Positions 1,084 through 13,206 of a DNA stretch of 13,289 nucleotides are shown here, piece after piece. Positions within the stretch are counted from its first letter, which is position 1, and every line of letters begins with the position of its first letter. The translations under genes were made by a program, and so were the position numbers. The notes under the pieces are model-generated. The model was given only the letters and a program-made list of their open reading frames with translations. It was not told where the DNA came from and searched no databases. The stretch comes from Pseudomonadota bacterium (GTDB lineage: Bacteria > Bdellovibrionota_C > UBA2361 > OMIW01): NCBI GenBank assembly GCA_900299205.1, contig OMIW01000111.1:1-13289 (forward strand), read 5' to 3'.

Positions 1084-1701
1084 CTAACCTGCCTTCTTCG
1101 CCTCACCACTTTCCTGAACCCCCTCTATCTCGAGCGACACCTTCACTTCATCACCGAGGACAAATCCTCCAGCATCCAACGCTTTGTTCCAGGTAATCCC
1201 AAAATCTTTGCGACTGAGGCTTGTTATCGCGGAAAATCCAACCCGTTTATTACCCCACGGATCGGTTGCTCCTCCCGTATATTCGACATCAAGAGTCACC
1301 GGCCTGGTGACCCCGTGCATCGTGAGGTCACCGGTCGCCTTAAAAACTCCATCCGAAACAGGCTCTACCTTTGTTGATTTAAAAGTTATCGTCGGATTTT
1401 GCGGTTCGTCAAAAAAATCAGCTCCCCTAAGGTGATCGTCCCGCTTTTTGTTTGCTGTATCGATGCTTTTGGTAACGATGGTCGCTTCGACCGTGGATTT
1501 TTCGACGGCCTGCGGATCAAACTGGAGTGCCCCCGAGAAATCGCCAAAATGTCCCGGAACCGAGGAGATAGCGAGGTGTCTAATTTTAAAACCCACTGTC
1601 GAATGAGAGGGGTCAATCGTATACCGCTCAGCATGAGCGATTCCACCGAAAAGAGTTATGGCTGACAGACTAGCTATTCCAAGAACATGTCCCTTTCGCA
1701 T
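1084..1701 (-). CDS. YceI-family periplasmic isoprenoid-binding protein
   Basis: The product is 205 residues, normal for YceI. Residues 1-24 form a Sec signal peptide ending AHA, so the mature protein would begin at E25 in the periplasm or be secreted. The mature part shows the family pattern: YTIDPSHSTVGFKIRHL near the start, GHFGDFSGAL, then DDHLRGADFFD, FKSTKVEPV, GDLTMHGVTRPVTLDVEY and FSAITSLSRKDFGITWN. YceI proteins are lipocalin-like barrels that bind long isoprenoid chains, including quinone-type lipids in solved structures. The physiological role is unsettled, with stress, acid and quinone links proposed. The ATG is preceded by GGAGG about 8 bases upstream, which fixes the start. The glycosyltransferase follows closely on the same strand. 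No convincing sigma-70 promoter was found in the 248 bases upstream. The C-terminal SGEAKKAG tail is a short extra. Confidence 0.93.
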   Translation of the reverse strand: MRKGHVLGIASLSAITLFGGIAHAERYTIDPSHSTVGFKIRHLAISSVPGHFGDFSGALQFDPQAVEKSTVEATIVTKSIDTANKKRDDHLRGADFFDEPQNPTITFKSTKVEPVSDGVFKATGDLTMHGVTRPVTLDVEYTGGATDPWGNKRVGFSAITSLSRKDFGITWNKALDAGGFVLGDEVKVSLEIEGVQESGEAKKAG

Positions 1702-2470: not shown

Positions 2471-3283
2471 ATGGATTCCTGGTCCACTCGCGGGGTTTCT
2501 CTGTTGCCTCATTTGTCCGCAAGCCCTCTCCTTATGGCCGCCACTTCACCCGAGCCCTTCACTGCGTATCGAACCTTCGTTACAACCCACCGTCGACTTC
2601 CCAAAAATCTGCGGGAGCTTGCCCGAGAGTGCTCTTTTCCTCTTGAATTACTCCGCTCTCGTTTTCCCACTATCCATGCCATGACAGAACAGCTCTGGGA
2701 AGACGTAGCGACCTCTGCTGGTTCTCAGGTCACGTTGACCCCGGAGTTTCCCCTGTTCTCGCCTCGGGAAAAGATAACAGCTCTCTTTCTTGCCGTACTT
2801 GATGAGTGCAATCGTGAGCGCGGTCTCTCCGATGTCACTTTCCCTCCCGATCTTCTCCGACCGATCAGCCGTGGACTCCCTCTCCTGCATGCTACCCGAG
2901 GGTTACGACGTGGTATCCTTCAATCACTAGCGGCAGCGCGATCATATCCCACTCACGGTTCTCCATCTCCGCTTGCCGAGGGAGCAACACCACTATCAGG
3001 CGGTATAATTCGCGACGAGGCGATCATCACGGCGTTTTTAGCATCTCTTGCCTTTTGGGCGACCGACTCCTCTCCTGAGCGGCTTCAAACCGAGGCGTTT
3101 GTCGACCACATCTCTCGAGTCGTTTCGGAGATTGTTTTTAGCCCGGTCCAGCCGGAACTTGCTTCCTCCATCTCAGAGCTTCTCCAATTTGTCGGCCAAC
3201 GACGGGTTCTCCCCCTTATCGCGCCCCTGCTGGCATCCTGGATGCACCGCTCCACATCATGTGACCCTGACGAGGACGGTTGA
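2471..3283 (+). CDS. TetR-like transcriptional regulator paired with ABC1 kinase
   Basis: The product is 270 residues from the first ATG of the frame. Residues 30-72 (FTAYRTFVTTHRRLPKN, then LRELARECSF and LLRSRFPTIHAM) follow the TetR N-terminal pattern: helix 1, then the helix-turn-helix, then a short-residue-F-x-[ST] segment. The rest is a mostly helical domain without enzyme motifs, as expected for a ligand-binding and dimerisation region. From memory, Bacteroidota genomes carry a similar divergent TetR-like protein next to an ABC1 kinase, which strengthens the call. The stop TGA (3281-3283) overlaps the kinase ATG (3283-3285), so the two are translationally coupled. The start is uncertain: ATG 2534, giving MAATSPEPF, would remove 21 residues that look unlike a folded domain, and neither site has a well-spaced ribosome binding site. 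The HTH is weak, so DNA binding is inferred. Confidence 0.68.
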   Translation: MDSWSTRGVSLLPHLSASPLLMAATSPEPFTAYRTFVTTHRRLPKNLRELARECSFPLELLRSRFPTIHAMTEQLWEDVATSAGSQVTLTPEFPLFSPREKITALFLAVLDECNRERGLSDVTFPPDLLRPISRGLPLLHATRGLRRGILQSLAAARSYPTHGSPSPLAEGATPLSGGIIRDEAIITAFLASLAFWATDSSPERLQTEAFVDHISRVVSEIVFSPVQPELASSISELLQFVGQRRVLPLIAPLLASWMHRSTSCDPDEDG

Positions 3284-4605
3284 TGGACGAATCGGGATAC
3301 AAAAAAGGAAAATCAATTCCTACCTCATCCCTCGGACGAGCCGCTCGCCTTTTCGGGACGGGAGTTCAGCTCGGCGGGAACTACCTTTCCCATGTCACTC
3401 GACGGGCAATCGCGGCCGAGAATTCATCTTCTCGTCTCCACGAAGCGAACGCGGCCACCATCTATCATGGATTGAGTCAGCTAAGGGGAAGCGCCTTAAA
3501 GGTGCTCCAAATGCTAAGTCTCGACACCGGCATCCTCCCTGAACCGTATCGGGACCGCTTCCAGCTCTCCCAATCCAGCGTCCCGCCTCTCTCGTTTCCC
3601 CTGGTGGTGAGGGTCTTTCAGCAAACCCTCGGCAAAGCTCCGAGCAGCCTGTTCGACACATTTTCGCACACCGCTGTTGCCGCAGCATCCATGGGACAGG
3701 TTCATCGCGCCTCCAAAGGCGATCATCAGTACGCAGTGAAGATACAATACCCTGGAGTAGCAGCAAGCATCGATGCCGACCTTGCCATGATACGACCGTT
3801 CGCATCGCTTCTCTTCCAGATTAAAGACTCTGATGTTGCGTTCTTCCTCGAAGAGGTTCGGGCTCGCTTGAAAGAGGAAGTTGACTATACCCTCGAGCTT
3901 TCTCGCGGAGAGGAGATAGCTGGCGCATCTTCCCACCTCGAAGGAATCGCCTTCCCCCGATATTATCCGGAATTATCAGGACAACGGGTGATAACGATGG
4001 ACTGGATGGAGGGGATGCACCTTTCCTCGTTTCTCGCGACCAATCCATCCCGCGAAGTTCGCAATCGCGCTGGTCAACGGCTCTGGGATTTTTATCACTT
4101 TCAGATCCACTCTCTTCGGCTTGCTCATGCGGATCCGCATCCGGGGAACTTTCTCTTTCAACCCGATGGCGGTGTCTCTGTCATCGACTTTGGCTGCATC
4201 AAAGAAATCCCATCACCTTTTTATGAACACTACTTCTCCCTCATACAGAATGAGTTTCGTAAAAATGACGAAAAGCTCGCTCACCTCTTCGAGCAGATGG
4301 GGATTCTCCTCCCCGACGATACGCCCGAAGAGCGCGCCCTTTTTTTCTCGATCACCGCTGAATTTATAGAATTACTTGCCCGCCCCTTCGACACCCCTGT
4401 CTTTGACTTCTCGGATGCAACCTACTTCGAACAAATAGCGCGACGAGGTGAGGAAATTGCCCGAATGAAGGAAGTGCGAGAATCTCGCTCAGCGCGGGGT
4501 CCCCGCGATGCAATCTTTGTTAATCGGATTTATGTCGGTTTGTACACGCTGCTTCATTCACTAGGAGCAGAAGTTGCAACTCGCGGAGTGGTAAATCCTG
4601 ATTGA
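3283..4605 (+). CDS. ABC1/AarF/UbiB-family atypical kinase
   Basis: The 440-residue product has the ABC1 landmarks in order: an N-terminal extension with LRGSALKVLQMLS at 67-79 at the place of the KxGQ motif, the Ala-rich nucleotide loop AAASMGQVH at 133-141, the VAIK-like lysine in YAVKIQYPGV (K153), the EEVDYTLE acidic helix at 198-205, the catalytic loop HADPHPGNF at 282-290 (D284, N289), and IDFG with D302. ABC1 proteins such as UbiB and COQ8 are ATPases or kinases needed for isoprenoid quinone synthesis or other lipid metabolism; the exact substrate is often unknown. Unlike UbiB it has no obvious C-terminal membrane helices. The KxGQ motif reads K73-V-L-Q76, with Gly replaced by Leu. The ATG at 3283 overlaps the upstream stop; an in-frame TTG at 3280 would add one residue. 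The family call is firm, the pathway is inferred. Confidence 0.9.
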   Translation: MDESGYKKGKSIPTSSLGRAARLFGTGVQLGGNYLSHVTRRAIAAENSSSRLHEANAATIYHGLSQLRGSALKVLQMLSLDTGILPEPYRDRFQLSQSSVPPLSFPLVVRVFQQTLGKAPSSLFDTFSHTAVAAASMGQVHRASKGDHQYAVKIQYPGVAASIDADLAMIRPFASLLFQIKDSDVAFFLEEVRARLKEEVDYTLELSRGEEIAGASSHLEGIAFPRYYPELSGQRVITMDWMEGMHLSSFLATNPSREVRNRAGQRLWDFYHFQIHSLRLAHADPHPGNFLFQPDGGVSVIDFGCIKEIPSPFYEHYFSLIQNEFRKNDEKLAHLFEQMGILLPDDTPEERALFFSITAEFIELLARPFDTPVFDFSDATYFEQIARRGEEIARMKEVRESRSARGPRDAIFVNRIYVGLYTLLHSLGAEVATRGVVNPD

Positions 4606-5153: not shown

Positions 5154-5297
5154 GCATCACCACAGCCACCTTTCGACGACTAACCACTGATTACTCCCCT
5201 CACCTGTCTATTTCTGATACGCTTGCTCTACCTCAGGAACGCGGGTTTCATATCATTCCCGTCGTCGCATTCAAGCCCCCCCTCCTTCGGAGATCCC

Positions 5298-6146
5298 ATG
5301 TCATTTTCGCCCTATGCCCCCGCGCCCGCCCCCATCCTCTGGCAAACCGCAAAAACTTATACCGACATCGAATACCATAAAGCAGAGGGTATCGCCCGGA
5401 TTACGATCAATCGGCCCGAGGTTCGGAATGCATTTCGTCCGTTGACAGTTCAGGAGATGCAGGATGCCTTCTCTGATGCCCGCGATGATGGCGATGTGGG
5501 AGTGGTCATTCTGACGGGGAAGGGTCCGCTCGCATTCTGCTCCGGGGGAGATCAACGGGTTCGCGGAGATGCGGGCTATCGCGATTCGGAGGGCACTATG
5601 CGGCTGAATGTTCTCGACCTCCAGCGACAGATTCGTACCCTCCCGAAGCCGGTCGTCGCGATGGTCGCAGGATATGCGATCGGTGGTGGTCACGTCCTGC
5701 ACGTTGTCTGCGATCTTACGATAGCTGCCGATAATGCCCGATTTGGTCAGACAGGTCCCCGGGTAGGATCGTTCGACGGAGGATTCGGTGCATCGTATCT
5801 CGCTCGGATGGTTGGACAGAAAAAGGCGCGCGAGATCTGGTTTCTCTGTCGTCAGTACGATGCGACTGAGGCTCTTGAAATGGGGCTCGTAAACGCGGTC
5901 GTCCCGCTGGATCGACTTGAAGAGGAGACGGTACAATGGTGCCGCGAGATGCTCCAGCATTCTCCTCTCGCGCTTCGTTGCCTCAAATCGGCTCTGAATG
6001 CCGATTGTGATGGACAGGCGGGCCTTCAGGAGCTTGCAGGGAATGCGACGATGCTCTTTTATATGACCGAAGAGGGCCAGGAGGGTCGCAATGCTTTTCT
6101 CGAACGTCGTCCTCCCAACTTCGGACAGTTTGGACGGAAGCCGTGA
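5298..6146 (+). CDS. menB: 1,4-dihydroxy-2-naphthoyl-CoA synthase, type I (MenB)
   Basis: MenB closes the second ring in menaquinone synthesis, converting o-succinylbenzoyl-CoA to 1,4-dihydroxy-2-naphthoyl-CoA in the cytoplasm. The 282-residue crotonase-fold product shows the family motifs: [13 protein letters not shown] at 34-46, the oxyanion-hole stretch CSGGDQ at 81-86, AGYAIGGGH at 124-132, [16 protein letters not shown] at 149-164, and the long conserved C-terminal run from [12 protein letters not shown] to [14 protein letters not shown]. Gly153 in QTGP marks the type I, bicarbonate-dependent form; type II enzymes carry Asp there. S158 matches the conserved active-site serine. I chose ATG 5298 because CGGAG lies a few bases upstream and the protein then starts like known MenB. 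An in-frame ATG at 5223 would add 25 residues of low-complexity sequence. menE follows 29 bases later. No clear promoter was found upstream. Confidence 0.96.
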
Positions 6147-6175: not shown

Positions 6176-7588
6176 ATGAAAGATCCTCTTCGGGAGCTGC
6201 TTATCCTGCGGGCGACGACCGACCGTGATCGGATTGCGGTTATCTCCAAAACCGGGTCCGTTACGTATCATGAGCTCATCGCCCGTGCATCAACGCTCGC
6301 CAGCGACCTCTTTGAAGGAGGGTCTTACAACGGGCCATTTCCCCCACCGTTACCATCTTACCATCCCCAATCGCCAGTAAGTGTTACCGCCGAGATAACC
6401 CCATCGTTCGTTGAGCTATGGTGGGCCTCGATCCTCGCCGGCGTGCCCCTCCTGCTCCACCATGAGGGAGATCCTCCCGCACGACTCGCCCGTCATCGAG
6501 CAGCTGCAGGTATCGTCGGGGTGCTCTCTCATGAGGAGAATAAGGCTCCTCGTGCTAGTCATTGGCACCTTGAACCCATTGAGCCCCCTCACCAGAGGCC
6601 CCAATCCCGAGCTGCAGCGCTTATCGCAACGAGCGGCAGTTCGGGTGAGCCAAAGATCATCGAGATACCCTCTCCTCACCTTTTTGCGAGTGCGGTTCGG
6701 GTCAATCATCGCCTTTCAGTTTCGCACGACTCGGCCTGGCTTCTCTCCCTCTTCCCTTGCCATATCGGTGGCCTGAGCATCATCGTGCGGGCGATGGTGG
6801 CGGGCTGTGCGCTCGTCATCCCTGATGACCTTAAACGGAGTACTATCCACCTCGCTTCGAGCACCCACAAGGTTACTCACCTTTCCCTCGTGCCCTCCGT
6901 CGTTGAGGAATTCCTCGCGGTCGGGCCGATGCCGTCGTCGGTGCAGGTAATCCTTCTCGGTGGTGAACGCATTCCATCAGCAAAACGAGCCTTGCTTGCA
7001 TCTATCCCTCAATGCGTCGTGAGCTACGGAGCTACCGAGACCTCGTCATGTATCGCCTCCGCCCGACTGGAAGAAATTGGGAAGACTGCACCCGATGCTG
7101 TCGGTATCCCCTTGGCTGATACCACCATCCGAATAATTGATGACCAAGGACGGGAAGTACCCCGAGGAGAGGTCGGAACCATCGAGGTGCATGGGCCTAC
7201 TATAATCACCCAGAACGGAACATGGCGCTCCTCAGATATCGGTTTTGTTAATACCGACGGATGTCTTCATGTCATCGGCCGACGCGATGATGTTATTATT
7301 AGCGGTGGGATGAAGATACGGGGTAGCGAAGTTGTGGATGCAGCTATTTCCAGTGGCCTCGTGACAGATGCCTGCGTTTTAAAGGCTCCAGATGCTCGAT
7401 GGGGTGAACAGCCCATTTTGTTCGTATCCGGACTCACGGCTCCACTTGCCACCCTTACAGATTTGCTCCGCGCCTCTCTCGGATCTCATCGCACCCCACG
7501 GCAGATAGAGGTAGTGGAATCTCTTCCGCGAACAGCAATCGGGAAGATTGACCGAGAGGCACTCCGAAATGCCTCTCAAAAAAAATAG
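6176..7588 (+). CDS. menE: o-succinylbenzoate--CoA ligase (MenE), ANL-family adenylating enzyme
   Basis: MenE activates o-succinylbenzoate with ATP and CoA, making the substrate of MenB. The 470-residue product has the ANL motifs in order: the phosphate loop IATSGSSGEPK at 150-160, the MenE-like FPCHIGGLSII at 193-203, YGATETSS at 284-291, SSDIGF with D354, the hinge GRRDDVIISGGMKI at 368-381, and the C-terminal PRTAIGKIDREAL at 451-463 with catalytic lysine K457. Its length is close to that of other MenE proteins. ANL sequence alone does not fix the substrate; the menB neighbour 29 bases upstream makes MenE the best call. Residues about 50-68 form a Pro-rich insertion (GPFPPPLPSYHPQSP). There is no strong Shine-Dalgarno sequence, so translation may depend on menB. 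Its stop lies only 7 bases from the convergent sensor gene's stop. Confidence 0.88.
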   Translation: MKDPLRELLILRATTDRDRIAVISKTGSVTYHELIARASTLASDLFEGGSYNGPFPPPLPSYHPQSPVSVTAEITPSFVELWWASILAGVPLLLHHEGDPPARLARHRAAAGIVGVLSHEENKAPRASHWHLEPIEPPHQRPQSRAAALIATSGSSGEPKIIEIPSPHLFASAVRVNHRLSVSHDSAWLLSLFPCHIGGLSIIVRAMVAGCALVIPDDLKRSTIHLASSTHKVTHLSLVPSVVEEFLAVGPMPSSVQVILLGGERIPSAKRALLASIPQCVVSYGATETSSCIASARLEEIGKTAPDAVGIPLADTTIRIIDDQGREVPRGEVGTIEVHGPTIITQNGTWRSSDIGFVNTDGCLHVIGRRDDVIISGGMKIRGSEVVDAAISSGLVTDACVLKAPDARWGEQPILFVSGLTAPLATLTDLLRASLGSHRTPRQIEVVESLPRTAIGKIDREALRNASQKK

Positions 7589-7595
7589 ATACGTC

Positions 7596-10500
7596 TTACC
7601 CCAGCAACGCAACGACATCCTCAACCCGAACTGGCTTCGTCAGATAGGCGTCAAATCCCGCCTCTCGCGCGGCTTTCTTGTCGTCGTCCTCTCCATACCC
7701 GCTGACCGCGATCAAGATGGGGAGTTTCGCCGAACTCTCATGACGGAGCTGTCGAACAACCTCGATCCCCGTCATATCAGGGAGGCCGATATCGACTATC
7801 GCAGCAGCAGGGCACTGAGAATGTACGCTATCAAGTGCCTCCTTTCCCGAGCCCGCAATCTCGACTTCGTAGCCCCGCGACTGCAGGACCATTTTGAGCA
7901 TTTCTGATGAATCGGGATTATCCTCCACGAGGAGAATCCGAGCCCCTGAAACCCGTTTTTCGCGGTCAGTACCCGCACCCTCGGCGGTCGATTGACTCAA
8001 TACGAGCGGGAAATCGACGACGAACTCGCTCCCCCGCCCGAGGCCCTCGCTCCGCGCAACTACTGAACCACCATGCTGCCGAGCAATCTCCTGAACCACC
8101 CAAAGCCCAAGACCCACTCCCGGGGAACGATTGGGCAAGTCCGTATCCAGCTGTGCATACTTCTCAAAAATCTGCTCGATCCGGTCAGGCGCAATCCCAC
8201 GCCCCTCATCTCGAACAATGAGAGACATCTGTCCGTCGTGACTCTCGATTCGGACCCATATACGGCCCTTTTCCTGAGAATACTTACTCGCGTTGTCGAG
8301 TAGATTCGCAACTAATTGTCGAAGGCGGTCCTCATCACCAGATACCCACACCGGCTCATCGGGCAACTCACAAATCAATTCCTGCTTTTTGGCTTCAATG
8401 TCCAGCCGCACCTGATCAATGGCTGATTCGACGGTTGGTCGAATGTCAATCGTTTTTGGATACAACCGAAGCTTGTCATGATTCGCCCTCGACATACCCA
8501 TCAGATCATCGACAAGACGGCTCATCTGCTGCGTTTGCCTCGTTATCACCCCCACCGCTCGCTGAACAGGCTCGCTCTTGTTCCGCTCGCTCTGAACCAC
8601 CGCGAGCGCACTGACGATGGCATGCAGCGGATTGCGGATCTCGTGAGCAATAGTCGCCATAAAGGCATCCCGTCGCCGAATCCCTTCGAGCGCCTGAAGC
8701 TCTTCCTGTTTTCTCTCGGTGATGTCAGTTGCAATCGTCGCAACACCGTATATCCCCTTGTCGGCCGATTTTACCGGATAACGGGCGGCAACGAATGTCC
8801 TCGATTGACCTGAACCATTGGCACCGACTGTTAACACCTCTTCAAATTCCCGAATCTGATCGCTCCGAACGACCTCTACATGATGACCTCGGACTAGCTC
8901 AGCTACCTCGAAGGGAAAAAGATCATAATCGATTCGTCCCTCAATCTCCTGAGCACAGAGCCCTAATAGCTCTTGAAACTTCCTATTAACGAGGATATAT
9001 CGCCCAAGCAGATCCTGGACTGTTACAAGAGCGGGAGAGGAATCAAGAATGTTCCGCAATACATCGGACTCTCCGATAAGTGCCTGGGCTCGATGTAATT
9101 CGTGCGCATCCATGAGGGTCGCCATCCATCCTTCATCCCCAGATATCTCATCTTTGAACGGAACAAATTTAAATGAGCATACCCGGTGCTCGTGATGCTG
9201 AGCACTCCATACCCGTACGACAGCTTCGAGGGCTCCTCCTGAGACGTCCGCCGGTGTCCGGGTGAGAAGGTCCAAAACGCGGGCCCTGTCACCCTCGGCG
9301 ACAGCAGAAAGCCAGCCAAAACCTTTTTCACTTGCCCAATCCTGTCCAACGAATTCCGCCCAATGAGGCTGATATTCGATAATCGCTCCCGAGCGATCCA
9401 TACTCCACACCGCAGCCTCTGATGCTTCAACAAGGGTCCGATACCGAGCCTCGCTAACCCGCAATGCCCGCTCCTTCTCCTTAACCGTCGAGATGTCAAC
9501 CATCGTCACTATTACCCCATCGACAGCATCTCCGGCGAGGTACGGGAGCACCCTGACAAGAAACGAATGACCCATCATGTCCTGATAGTCATGTTCCACC
9601 GGCTGTCCCTCTCGGAGAACTTTCTCAAGGGTTGGCACCAGCGCAGGACCTCGAAAACGCATCGCGAAGGTGTCGATCCGCCGACCGATATCCTGAGGAA
9701 GGAGACATAACAGCTCACCAATGGCTGGCGTAAAGCGTCGAATACTCAGATTGCTATCAAGAAAGAGAGTTGCGATATCAGTCGCCGTCAGAAAGTTTTC
9801 CAGATCATTGCTTAACTCAGTAAGCTCACCGATCTTCTGATGATACTCCGTGTTGACCGTATAGAGCTCCTCGTTCAATGAATGGAGCTCCTCGTTTGTA
9901 CTCTGAAGCTCTTCGTTTGAAGCTATTAATTCTTCATTACTCGCCTGAAGCTCTTCATTCGTCGTTTCAAGCTCCTCTATAGTGGCTTGCAAGGTATCCC
10001 TCGTGTACCTGAGCTCCTCTTGGAGATTATCGATCTGATGTCGCCCTCCCTCATCTGCCGCGAATGCGCGTCCATCAACAACATGCTCGGAACCAACCGG
10101 TGGAAGCTCGACTATTGATGATACGACCGGCTCAGTGAGGACAAGGACACACTCCGCCTTAATAAATTTCACGGCGAGAGGCCGCACCGTTACATGAAAT
10201 TCCTGAACTGCACCCGCGGGAAGAGTCAACGAAACCCTCTCAAATCGAACCGATTGGCCCGTCTTTCGGATATGTGGAAGCGCCCCAACCAATAGAGAGC
10301 GAAGCTCCGGGGGTACAAGCTCAAGAATATCTACCGTCGCCCTTCCACTTCTTAGGGAGAGGATATCTCCTCCCTTACCGAAACAGTACAGCAACTCTCT
10401 GACATCGTTGATAAGAAATCCCGATGGCATATACTCCGAAATCACCGAGTCAAGAATCGACAATATGCGGTGTTCAGGAAGGGTCGTCGCATGAATTCGC

Positions 10501-11969
10501 TCTGACTGCCGCAATCGGAGCTGGGTTGAATCGGAGATATGACTCAACGTGGGGACAACGGATCTGTCCCTCCGTTTCCGGAATATCTTTGAAGTGGCAT
10601 CTATCGGGTCAAAATCGTCTTTTAGCGCGCCAGTTGACTCACTTGAACCAAGGAAGAGAACTCCCTGCGATTTGAGAGAGAAGTGAAATATCGAGAGAGC
10701 CCGACGCTGGGCACTTGGCTGAAAGTAGATCAGGAGATTTCGGCAAACTACGAGATCTATCTTCGTGAACGGAGGATCTCTCAGAAGATTATGGTTAACG
10801 AATGTCACCATACTCCGAATGTCTGTGCTCACTCGATATGAATCACCGACTGGCGAAAAATAGCGGTCGCGACGCTCGGGAGAGAGGGCGGCGATACTCT
10901 CTCCCGAATACAGACCCGCCATCGCAAATGATATCGAGGTCGGATGGATATCCGTCGCAAATATCCGAACCCGGTTGGTCATCTTGCGACTAGTTAACGC
11001 CTCACGAAGTAGAATTGCAAGAGAATAGGGCTCCTCTCCTGTTGCGCAACCGACAGACCACACCCGAATCTCGGCATCAGGGGCAATCTTATCCACCAGA
11101 CCCGGTATCACCGAGAACTCAAGCACCTCATACGCCCCTTTATCGCGGAAAAAGGCCGTTACCCCTATCAGAAGATCCTTATAAAGCCGGCCCAGCTCCT
11201 CCTCATTCGAACGAAGAAGCTCAAGATATGATTCAGGAGAATGTGCTTGAACAAGCGCGAGGCGACGAGTGATACGCCGAGCAACGGTCGAGAGCTTGTA
11301 CTGCGAAAAGTCGATTCCAAATGACTCAAAAAGCATCCGATAGATCGAGAGCAGCACCGATTCATCTTCATCCACTTCACCGTCACCCGCGTCCTCTCTT
11401 CCTCCCCCTTCTAGTAAGCTCCCAATCAAGGGGCCAATCGCCGAGGGCGATACAACCTCATCCATCACACCAGTAGCGATGGCGGCACGGGGCATACCAT
11501 CAAATTTCGCTGAATCTGGATCTTGAGCGATGCAAAATCCACCTGCATCGTGAACTGCCCGGATACCCCGCGAGCCATCGGATCCGGTTCCGGACAACAC
11601 CACCGCGACAGCGCGAGATCCATAAATCTCTGCAAGTGAATTGAAAAACAGATCAATCGGCATCGTTAACGACGAAGGTCGTTCGCGGTCGGTCAACGCA
11701 AAAGCCCCCTCCCGGATGGCAACCTCTTTACCTGGTGCGTTAACGTACACCACGTTCGGTTTGATCGGCATTCCGTCTTCGACCATCATCACGGGAAGCG
11801 TGGTGATCCGTCCGAGAAGTTCATCCATCATACTCGGGAAATCGGGCGAGAGATGCTGAACGACAATAAATGCAACCCCTGAATTGAGCGGAACCCCCTG
11901 AAACATAACCTGAAGAGCTTCAAGCCCTCCCGCCGATGCACCTATTCCAACCACCTTTGTTAGTTCCAT
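7596..11969 (-). CDS. CheB-CheR-PAS-histidine kinase-receiver fusion protein
   Basis: This 1457-residue protein joins a whole signalling pathway. Residues 1-187 are a CheB methylesterase (GIGASAGG with S12, QHLSPD with H39, GTGSDG with D131). Residues about 203-468 are a CheR methyltransferase with the SAM loop GCATGEEPY at 307-315, NHNLL and DLVVCRNLLIYF. A degenerate PAS (about 500-600) precedes a coiled coil (about 648-715) with five NEEL heptads. Three more PAS domains lie at about 720-830, 837-955 and 965-1090. Then come HisKA (AHEIRNPL, H1109), HATPase (N1226, DEGRGI, GVGLGL) and a receiver (VEDNPD, D1393, K1445). All catalytic residues are present. No membrane helix is visible, so it is probably cytoplasmic. 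The start is ATG 11969, since GGGGAGG lies 8 bases upstream; GTG 11978 would overlap that site. No MCP, CheA or CheW genes are nearby. CheB lacks its usual N-terminal receiver. Confidence 0.95.
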   Translation of the reverse strand: MELTKVVGIGASAGGLEALQVMFQGVPLNSGVAFIVVQHLSPDFPSMMDELLGRITTLPVMMVEDGMPIKPNVVYVNAPGKEVAIREGAFALTDRERPSSLTMPIDLFFNSLAEIYGSRAVAVVLSGTGSDGSRGIRAVHDAGGFCIAQDPDSAKFDGMPRAAIATGVMDEVVSPSAIGPLIGSLLEGGGREDAGDGEVDEDESVLLSIYRMLFESFGIDFSQYKLSTVARRITRRLALVQAHSPESYLELLRSNEEELGRLYKDLLIGVTAFFRDKGAYEVLEFSVIPGLVDKIAPDAEIRVWSVGCATGEEPYSLAILLREALTSRKMTNRVRIFATDIHPTSISFAMAGLYSGESIAALSPERRDRYFSPVGDSYRVSTDIRSMVTFVNHNLLRDPPFTKIDLVVCRNLLIYFQPSAQRRALSIFHFSLKSQGVLFLGSSESTGALKDDFDPIDATSKIFRKRRDRSVVPTLSHISDSTQLRLRQSERIHATTLPEHRILSILDSVISEYMPSGFLINDVRELLYCFGKGGDILSLRSGRATVDILELVPPELRSLLVGALPHIRKTGQSVRFERVSLTLPAGAVQEFHVTVRPLAVKFIKAECVLVLTEPVVSSIVELPPVGSEHVVDGRAFAADEGGRHQIDNLQEELRYTRDTLQATIEELETTNEELQASNEELIASNEELQSTNEELHSLNEELYTVNTEYHQKIGELTELSNDLENFLTATDIATLFLDSNLSIRRFTPAIGELLCLLPQDIGRRIDTFAMRFRGPALVPTLEKVLREGQPVEHDYQDMMGHSFLVRVLPYLAGDAVDGVIVTMVDISTVKEKERALRVSEARYRTLVEASEAAVWSMDRSGAIIEYQPHWAEFVGQDWASEKGFGWLSAVAEGDRARVLDLLTRTPADVSGGALEAVVRVWSAQHHEHRVCSFKFVPFKDEISGDEGWMATLMDAHELHRAQALIGESDVLRNILDSSPALVTVQDLLGRYILVNRKFQELLGLCAQEIEGRIDYDLFPFEVAELVRGHHVEVVRSDQIREFEEVLTVGANGSGQSRTFVAARYPVKSADKGIYGVATIATDITERKQEELQALEGIRRRDAFMATIAHEIRNPLHAIVSALAVVQSERNKSEPVQRAVGVITRQTQQMSRLVDDLMGMSRANHDKLRLYPKTIDIRPTVESAIDQVRLDIEAKKQELICELPDEPVWVSGDEDRLRQLVANLLDNASKYSQEKGRIWVRIESHDGQMSLIVRDEGRGIAPDRIEQIFEKYAQLDTDLPNRSPGVGLGLWVVQEIARQHGGSVVARSEGLGRGSEFVVDFPLVLSQSTAEGAGTDREKRVSGARILLVEDNPDSSEMLKMVLQSRGYEVEIAGSGKEALDSVHSQCPAAAIVDIGLPDMTGIEVVRQLRHESSAKLPILIAVSGYGEDDDKKAAREAGFDAYLTKPVRVEDVVALLG
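9864..9959 (-). repeat. 21-base coding repeat encoding NEEL heptads
   Basis: Within the hybrid gene, five copies of NEEL occur exactly seven residues apart (residues 671, 678, 685, 692, 699), each with short polar residues between. The DNA shows a matching 21-base period but the copies differ at synonymous and variable sites. This is the coiled coil between the CheR part and the PAS/kinase part; such NEEL-rich linkers are typical of CheB-CheR-PAS fusions. Confidence 0.85.
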
Positions 11970-12020
11970 GTTTTGCACCTCCCCACCGGCGTAAGCCTAC
12001 CTTTTTTCCATGGTGAGGGC

Positions 12021-12050
12021 ATCATAGGGTGCCTTGAGGGAGGTATTCAA
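12021..12050 (-). promoter_or_regulatory. Candidate sigma-70 promoter for the CheB-CheR hybrid gene
   Basis: On the minus strand TTGAAT (complement of 12045-12050, 4 of 6 matches) lies 18 bases before TATGAT (complement of 12021-12026, 5 of 6 matches). Transcription would begin near 12014 and give a leader of about 45 bases that includes the GGGGAGG ribosome binding site before ATG 11969. Confidence 0.5.
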
Positions 12051-12093
12051 CTGGCAAGATGAGTGGTGGCATCTACCCCTCACGCTCGTCGTA

Positions 12094-12115
12094 TGTGTGG
12101 TACTACTACCACGCA
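12094..12115. repeat. Inverted repeat in the divergent intergenic region
   Basis: GTGGTA at 12097-12102 and TACCAC at 12107-12112 form a perfect 6-bp inverted repeat around CTAC. It extends to 9 pairs, 12094 to 12115, with one G-T wobble. It has no T run, so it is not a terminator. It could be an operator between the sensor hybrid and the redox gene, or simply a hairpin in the 5' region. Confidence 0.5.
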
Positions 12116-12181
12116 ACCTCACTCAGACTATTAAATACTCGACAACGCCCTCAAACTGTTCGTGGGGTCGCTTTATTCAAC

Positions 12182-12225
12182 TTGTCGCCTCGTCGCTAAG
12201 TGCTCAGAATCATGCCGATACGGCA
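12182..12225 (+). promoter_or_regulatory. Weak candidate promoter with palindrome for the SelL-like gene
   Basis: TTGTCG at 12182-12187 (4 of 6) is spaced 17 bases from CAGAAT at 12205-12210 (4 of 6), giving a start of transcription near 12217. A perfect 5-bp palindrome, TGCCG-ATA-CGGCA, covers 12213-12225, right at that point and 12 bases before the ATG at 12238. It could be an operator or a short 5' hairpin. Both elements are weak on their own. Confidence 0.3.
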
Positions 12226-12237
12226 AATTCGTCAGCG

Positions 12238-13206
12238 ATGCGATCCATGAAAACCCCTCCCAAGAACAGAATCCGCGCCGCACTGATCTCGGTGCTGCTC
12301 TACTATGAAATCTTCGCGGTTGGCCTCATCCTCCTTACTGCCGATTTATTTCCGCTGATAGGACTTCCCCCGTCCACCGCTGCCTGGCCGCTGCGACTCG
12401 CCGCAGTCATGGTTGGCGTAAGTGGCATGGGCCTTATCCTTCCGTTGCGTGACCCCATTCGCCATTGGGGAATTACCGCACTTATTGCGAGTGGTCAGAT
12501 TGCCCTCCCTATCGCAACCATCATACTGGTACTTTGGGGAGACCTTCCCCCCCACGTTGGGGTCCCGATGGCACTCGTTGATTGTCTTTTCTTTTTGCCG
12601 AGTATCCTCGCACTCATCTGGACGATTGATCTGTACGCAGATTCCGAGAATCCAACGGGCGAACGTGGGCGTCTTTTTAGCGCCAACACGGCTTCCGATG
12701 CAGTCCTCTCCGTGGTCCCCGACGGCACTCATCGAACTATTGCTGAACTCTCAGATGATGGCTCTGTTCTGATTCTTCTCCTGCGGCACCTTGGTTGTAC
12801 GTTCTGCCGTAAAAGCCTGGCAGCGCTCGGCGAACAGAGCGAGCTCCTTAAGGGACATTATCACCATATCGTTATCGTTACGATGAGCCCGATCGAGGAG
12901 ATGCTTTCCATTCGGACACGCTACCACCTGCCCTCTGCTCTTCTCGTGAGCGATCCTGACCGAACAATCTATCGCGCACTCGAAATACCCCGCGGGACAG
13001 CCCGCCAAACCCTCGGCTGGGGCGTTTTAAGAGAGGGTCTCCTGTCGGGTCTCCTCTTTCGGCATGGTATCGGCACCGTCCGCTCCGATCCATTTCAACT
13101 ATCTGGCTCAGCAATCATCAAACATCGATCAATCGTCGCTATCTACCCGACCGAAAACGCCGCCGCAGACGTCGTCGCAACCAGTGATGGCTCTTGTATG
13201 CTGTGA
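12238..13206 (+). CDS. Membrane protein with C-terminal SelL-like peroxiredoxin/thioredoxin-fold domain
   Basis: From ATG 12238 the product is 322 residues. The first part has four hydrophobic segments at about 17-38, 51-69, 79-100 and 111-132. The rest is a thioredoxin-fold domain of the AhpC/TSA-like, SelL-related type: LLLRHLGCTFCRKSL with the redox pair C187 and C190, IVIVTMSP, LLVSDPDRTIYRALEIPRG, then FRHGIGTVRSDPFQLSGSAII. SelL proteins use UxxU or CxxC for peroxide or thiol redox work; here both positions are Cys. The membrane part may pass electrons to or from the CxxC, as in other membrane-anchored thiol systems, but that is inference. The frame stays open upstream to TTG 12034, adding 68 residues that look non-coding; neither start has a good ribosome binding site. 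The gene is divergent from the CheB-CheR hybrid and is followed by a terminator. Confidence 0.8.
   Translation: MRSMKTPPKNRIRAALISVLLYYEIFAVGLILLTADLFPLIGLPPSTAAWPLRLAAVMVGVSGMGLILPLRDPIRHWGITALIASGQIALPIATIILVLWGDLPPHVGVPMALVDCLFFLPSILALIWTIDLYADSENPTGERGRLFSANTASDAVLSVVPDGTHRTIAELSDDGSVLILLLRHLGCTFCRKSLAALGEQSELLKGHYHHIVIVTMSPIEEMLSIRTRYHLPSALLVSDPDRTIYRALEIPRGTARQTLGWGVLREGLLSGLLFRHGIGTVRSDPFQLSGSAIIKHRSIVAIYPTENAAADVVATSDGSCML

Follow-up and report, generated by a model that had tools for sequence, protein, structure and literature searches.

ABC1/COQ8 proteins pose a long-standing question of function. Yeast Coq8 has been proposed to act as an ATPase that responds to CoQ intermediates with increased activity, and cells that lack Coq8 have no detectable Coq9 (PMC7263595). 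COQ9 binds isoprenoid lipid and is present in alphaproteobacteria without COQ7 (PMC10385794). It is a TetR-fold protein that raises questions of its own, about its origin and about its role apart from COQ7, and the gene pair examined here, in which a gene for a TetR-fold protein overlaps that of an ABC1 kinase, bears on both. The pair lies in a 13,289-nucleotide stretch of DNA (the window), whose features are collected in Table 1.

TABLE 1 Features of the window, with positions counted from its first nucleotide
Feature	Positions	Strand	Remarks
YceI-family lipocalin	1084..1701	-	PF04264, 181.7 bits
TetR-fold protein gene	2534..3283	+	249 aa from ATG 2534; 270 aa if the start is 2471
HTH-like region (first three helices and beginning of helix 4)	2549..2683	+	Usual lysine is Ile; net charge +4
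Conserved C-terminal motif around WATDSSPERLQTEAFV	3056..3106	+	Family pattern W..D.S..FE.TD..IEK; segment in common with COQ9 (hhalign)
TGATG	3281..3285	+	Stop of the TetR-fold gene overlaps the kinase start by one base
ABC1/UbiB-family atypical kinase, short type, 440 aa	3283..4605	+	PF03109 (ABC1), 174 bits, above the cut-off of 22.9
KVLQ where UbiB has KxGQ	3499..3510	+	Paired clade mostly KxAQ; distant relatives often KxGQ
A-rich loop VAAASMGQVH	3676..3705	+	Motif comparison
HADPHPGN catalytic loop to DFG, intact	4126..4194	+	From sequence; D284, N289 and D302-G304 invariant in alignment A1
menB	5223..6146	+	PRK07396, 509.8 bits; TIGR01929, 464.6 bits; genome's only close MenB; best match, at 81%, from a same-order genome
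menE-like o-succinylbenzoate-CoA ligase	6176..7588	+	Best family TIGR01923, 197 bits, below the cut-off of 330

Conserved pairing of the TetR-fold and ABC1 kinase genes

The stop codon of the upstream frame, TGA, occupies positions 3281 to 3283 and the ATG of the kinase positions 3283 to 3285, the two sharing base 3283 as the original prediction had read it, and this overlap suggests that their translation is coupled. For the TetR-fold gene, the family alignment (A2) favors ATG 2534 (M22) over 2471 as the start. Just 5' of the pair and on the same strand (1950-2393, +) is a gene for a hydrophobic 147-aa protein with no Pfam match, by its look a small membrane protein that could be part of the same operon.

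The kinase matches solved ABC1 proteins closely (7cy2, E = 2e-39; 5yjz, E = 3e-39) and COQ8 entries at E values of 1e-22 to 8e-27. Its A-rich loop, VKIQYP lysine, HADPHPGN and DFG are all present and only the KxGQ motif deviates; because the other motifs are intact, the KVLQ kinase is a variant within the ABC1 family. Paired kinases cluster strongly in a quick tree, in which that of the window joins the Bacteroidota and Verrucomicrobiota rows (99% SH-aLRT) as the first to branch.

Pairs of this kind had been placed in Bacteroidota too and taken as an old conserved module, and a survey of the neighborhoods of homologous kinases confirms both points. Across 148 Bacteroidota genomes, every one of 46 TetR_C_23 genes is closely followed on its own strand by an ABC1 kinase gene, and just one of the 46 pairs has room for an intervening gene. 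The association is confined to short kinases, 46 of 49 of which are paired, as opposed to none of the 20 long UbiB-type kinases. When the window kinase was compared with species genomes, its best matches were mostly from Bacteroidota (39 to 55% identity), nearly all of them immediately preceded by a gene for a 200- to 260-aa protein that often overlaps the kinase gene or stops a few bases short of it. The pair also extends beyond Bacteroidota to Verrucomicrobiota, Balneolota, Rhodothermota and Pseudomonadota.

Five kinases that were first scored as unpaired (L042, L043, L046, L052 and L086) have their TetR gene one gene further upstream. The order is TetR-HAD-ABC1 in the Mucilaginibacter group (L042, L043, L046 and L052), where the intervening gene encodes a HAD-family hydrolase, and TetR-DUF2867-ABC1 in Acidovorax, where a DUF2867 protein (L086:5403-5984) separates a canonical TetR from the kinase. 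DUF2867-containing SDR proteins also occur near the pair in Flavobacteriia, and DUF2867 may share its pathway. At locus L057, the TetR-fold gene lies elsewhere in the genome and does not adjoin the kinase. Long frames in genomes G193 and G275 were considered as TetR-ABC1 fusions, but their reading phase, taken from the coordinates, showed that they are not. A search of the open-access literature found no published account of the pair. The pairing is real, broadly conserved and apparently undescribed.

TetR fold, helix-turn-helix region and the link to COQ9

In Pfam searches, the window protein scored below the cut-offs of both TetR_C_23 (PF17931; 19.4 to 19.6 bits against 29.1) and COQ9 (PF08511; 16.5 to 17.6 bits against 20.5), and a PDB sequence search with this protein alone returned no match. 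A profile built from 44 Bacteroidota upstream proteins, leaving out the window, recovered the window protein with 39.8 bits (E = 2e-12), whereas the best generic TetR control reached only 20.4 bits, and a family profile including the window matched solved TetR regulators at E = 6e-14. The AlphaFold model is all-helical (pLDDT, 86.6; pTM, 0.84), and a structure search of the PDB assigns it a TetR fold. Together, these profiles and the predicted model establish the protein as a member of the TetR fold superfamily, and the TetR-like character originally ascribed to the protein stands.

Among the upstream proteins chosen for alignment, 51 of 53 match TetR_C_23, a figure that speaks for kinship among them and not for function, this Pfam family probably having been built on such proteins. 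The TetR_C_23 cut-off is passed by L063, L083, L086, L087 and L090 and not by L106; the upstream proteins of L082 and L106 have no match to the leave-out profile, so that evidence for their membership is weak. Within the C-terminal motif, D178 is invariant and S180 and T186 are nearly so in alignment A2. The C-terminal amphipathic helix was dropped as evidence, its hydrophobic moment lying barely above that of controls (0.545 versus 0.502, P = 0.02).

The N-terminal half had been described as a weak helix-turn-helix (HTH), and the window protein indeed has no match to TetR_N in Pfam. Across the family, just 3 of 53 members retain the lysine that follows the F-x-S/T turn, compared with 18 of 21 control TetRs, and the mean net charge of the HTH region is −2.6 in Bacteroidota members and +0.6 in controls (P = 8e-6). 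Canonical TetR_N domains are kept by the Pseudomonadota members L086 and L087 and by the planctomycete L090. The HTH is therefore eroded in Bacteroidota-type members and canonical in Pseudomonadota. The window protein is the exception in charge: the usual lysine is absent, yet its HTH region carries a net +4. The original suggestion of a partner protein that does not bind DNA is thus favored for Bacteroidota-type members, whose HTH has lost the lysine and is negatively charged; the window protein may still bind DNA because its HTH region is net positive. The label of regulator that came with that suggestion is supported by no regulatory evidence.

The C-terminal domain of the family matches COQ9. 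With hhalign, the C-terminal profile aligned to alphaproteobacterial COQ9 with 95.2% probability (E = 2.5e-8, 112 columns), compared with 8.3% against generic Bacteroidota TetRs and 0.1% for COQ9 against generic TetRs; with Bacteroidota rows only, the values were 90% against COQ9 and 1.6% against generic TetRs, the heterogeneous control TetR alignment being weakened by construction and a Pfam-wide scan forming the cleaner control. Of 26 COQ9 proteins compared with the full set of 24,736 Pfam families, 19 matched TetR_C_23 and none matched another TetR_C family; TetR_C_23 was the sole other family widely matched by bacterial COQ9 proteins. In the reverse scan, COQ9 was the second most frequent family, matched by 12 of the 53 TetR-fold proteins. 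The scores of these cross-matches are weak (best E, 0.00035) and gain credibility through their consistency. Taken together, these comparisons show that the C-terminal domain of the family is specifically akin in sequence to COQ9, beyond the likeness expected of any TetR protein.

Structure searches agree with a kinship to COQ9 but did not separate COQ9 from ordinary TetR folds with either model tried, the Z values being tied: human COQ9 ranked 4 to 6 among PDB matches to the window model (Z, 11.4 to 11.8) and 11 to 16 for a Zunongwangia model with a pLDDT of 92.8 (Z, 13.3 to 13.7). For this reason, the case for COQ9 rests on sequence profiles. Bacterial COQ9 proteins also have a GD.STD.N.YTKR segment (W129, G133, D134, D138, Y142, K144 and R145 invariant in alignment A3) that has no counterpart in the TetR-fold family when A3 is aligned to A2; because of this, and because it scores below the COQ9 cut-off, the window protein is not filed as a COQ9. 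The COQ9 motif is not restricted to proteins linked to ABC1, since an alphaproteobacterial TetR-like protein (L113:1423-2055, −) has a weak one, and its neighbor is a csaA-like gene in place of an ABC1 kinase.

Genomic context and alternative explanations

The window also carries menB, a menE-like gene and a gene for a YceI-family lipocalin; isoprenoids or ubiquinone-8 are often bound to lipocalins of this family (PMC9113575). An opposite-strand frame separates the men genes from the pair, and men genes are not recurrent neighbors of the pair at other loci. Elsewhere in the window are a fused CheB-CheR-PAS-histidine kinase-response regulator of 1460 aa (7596-11978, −) and a frame (12034-13206, +) whose product has hydrophobic segments in the N-terminal half and a weak AhpC/TSA domain in the C-terminal half. 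Upstream, and on the opposite strand, 10 loci (L047, L048, L050, L053, L056, L059, L062, L063, L066 and L078) have an htpG-like gene; downstream, a FabH-like gene is present in 9 loci, largely the same set. Co-occurrence with heme-copper oxidases was uninformative as a clue, 141 of the 148 genomes having one.

The main rival to a kinase partner, especially with the HTH region of the window protein still positively charged, is a ligand-sensing autorepressor that would bind a lipid or quinone signal and repress its own operon, including the kinase. TetR genes commonly adjoin their target, and the canonical HTH of L086, L087 and L090 is in keeping with such a role, as is the net charge of +4 in the window. 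An AACAAA-n-TTTGTT palindrome occurs upstream of the pair at 5 of 44 Bacteroidota loci and in 3 of 196 control promoters, but the pattern was picked after the data were seen. The five loci (L053, L058, L059, L063 and L066) may have in it an operator or a Bacteroidota promoter element. Palindromes are not enriched overall (53 upstream regions, mean P = 0.49; perfect 7-bp arms, 30% versus 21%), and Bacteroidota-type members lack both the HTH lysine and the positive charge. Palindrome scans for a shared operator stayed near background, with no general signal, but are weak tests; overall, a ligand-sensing autorepressor is a possible explanation that we consider unlikely.

A photo-oxidative stress module, in which the pair would belong to a light-response set and act on membrane lipids or pigments in place of respiratory quinone, we regard as improbable. 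It is suggested by the genes often found near the pair in Flavobacteriia and Hymenobacter, which encode photolyase, DPRP, DUF2867, TIGR03643, TspO and FolE, by flavin reductase genes also nearby in Flavobacteriia or Hymenobacter, and by the DUF2867 gene within the Acidovorax operon. In the 148 Bacteroidota genomes, photolyase lies within 10 kb of at least 11 of the 46 pairs, compared with 0.32 expected, a Poisson figure that is inflated by the synteny that related genomes share and so overstates their independence. The other 35 pairs have no photolyase within 10 kb among the matches listed, and the window has none. Such a module would be compatible with a lipid-binding kinase partner, because quinones are also antioxidants. 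Less probable still is mere co-inheritance of the two genes without joint function, or a misbinned contig that brought a Bacteroidota pair into this genome. No close relative of the kinase turned up in the genomes sampled from the same order and class, which would fit misbinning and suggests horizontal gain or patchy loss of the kinase. Neutral hitchhiking is disfavored by the invariable association in Bacteroidota, the branch of the window kinase lies outside the Bacteroidota rows, and the menB of the contig, the only close MenB of the genome and nearest to that of a same-order genome, makes the contig look native.

Proposed function and comparison with known systems

We judge the chances to be about even that the TetR-fold protein and the ABC1 kinase form a dedicated two-protein module, with the TetR-fold protein as a lipid-binding partner whose ligand is most likely menaquinone or a precursor. 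The TetR-fold protein would have stopped binding DNA in most lineages, a regulator turned kinase partner. Close to the membrane, its C-terminal helical pocket would hold a lipid that is probably a prenylquinone. The kinase would spend ATP to drive release or hand-over of this lipid from the TetR-fold protein, which would act with it as COQ9 does with COQ8, and the gene overlap would ensure that the two proteins are made in matching amounts. For the window, we infer a non-DNA-binding role, physical contact between the proteins, a ligand of this identity and an ATP-driven step. The partner model draws on the pairing, the erosion of the HTH, the kinship with COQ9, the menB, menE and YceI context and the dependence of Coq9 on Coq8 in yeast; against it stand the charge of the window HTH, the ties in the structure searches, the missing COQ9 segment, the non-recurrent men genes and the canonical HTH of Pseudomonadota.

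Because the TetR-fold protein resembles COQ9, which assists mitochondrial coenzyme Q synthesis by binding lipid, the pair may be a bacterial counterpart of COQ9/COQ8. A further reading, which we hold as rather doubtful, is that COQ9 descends from a TetR regulator already coupled to ABC1 in bacteria, the TetR_C_23/ABC1 operon being a living, quinone-handling counterpart of COQ9/COQ8 in which DNA-binding (Pseudomonadota) and HTH-eroded (Bacteroidota-type) versions coexist. The COQ9 link makes the question of what COQ8-type kinases do testable, since the operon, in which a COQ9-related protein is constantly tied to an ABC1 kinase, is a small, genetically simple system for contact, ATPase stimulation and lipid binding. 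A function would also follow for a large group of proteins annotated just as TetR regulators.

Among known systems, the Pfam TetR_C_23 family, whose proteins are annotated as TetR regulators, is matched by most of the relatives from Bacteroidota, Verrucomicrobiota and Pseudomonadota, whereas the window protein scores under the cut-off of that family. FadR/KstR-type TetR regulators, which bind acyl-CoA, have in common with the window family the fold and the class of hydrophobic-ligand pocket, but they keep a working HTH, and the C-terminal profile match of the window family is to COQ9 and not to generic TetR controls. COQ8, UbiB and MABP-1 resemble the window kinase in kinase fold and most motifs; the window kinase is of the short type (about 440 aa), paired kinases mostly have KxAQ (KxLQ in the window) and not KxGQ, and the window kinase is accompanied by a TetR-fold gene. 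COQ9, which is mitochondrial and alphaproteobacterial, shares with the window family a TetR-derived fold and the C-terminal W..D.S..E.T...(L/I)(D/E) segment, and in eukaryotes it is the functional companion of the ABC1-family COQ8, much as the window TetR-fold gene is paired with an ABC1 kinase. Unlike COQ9, the window family has its gene adjoining that of its kinase, and its hosts are bacteria expected to use menaquinone.
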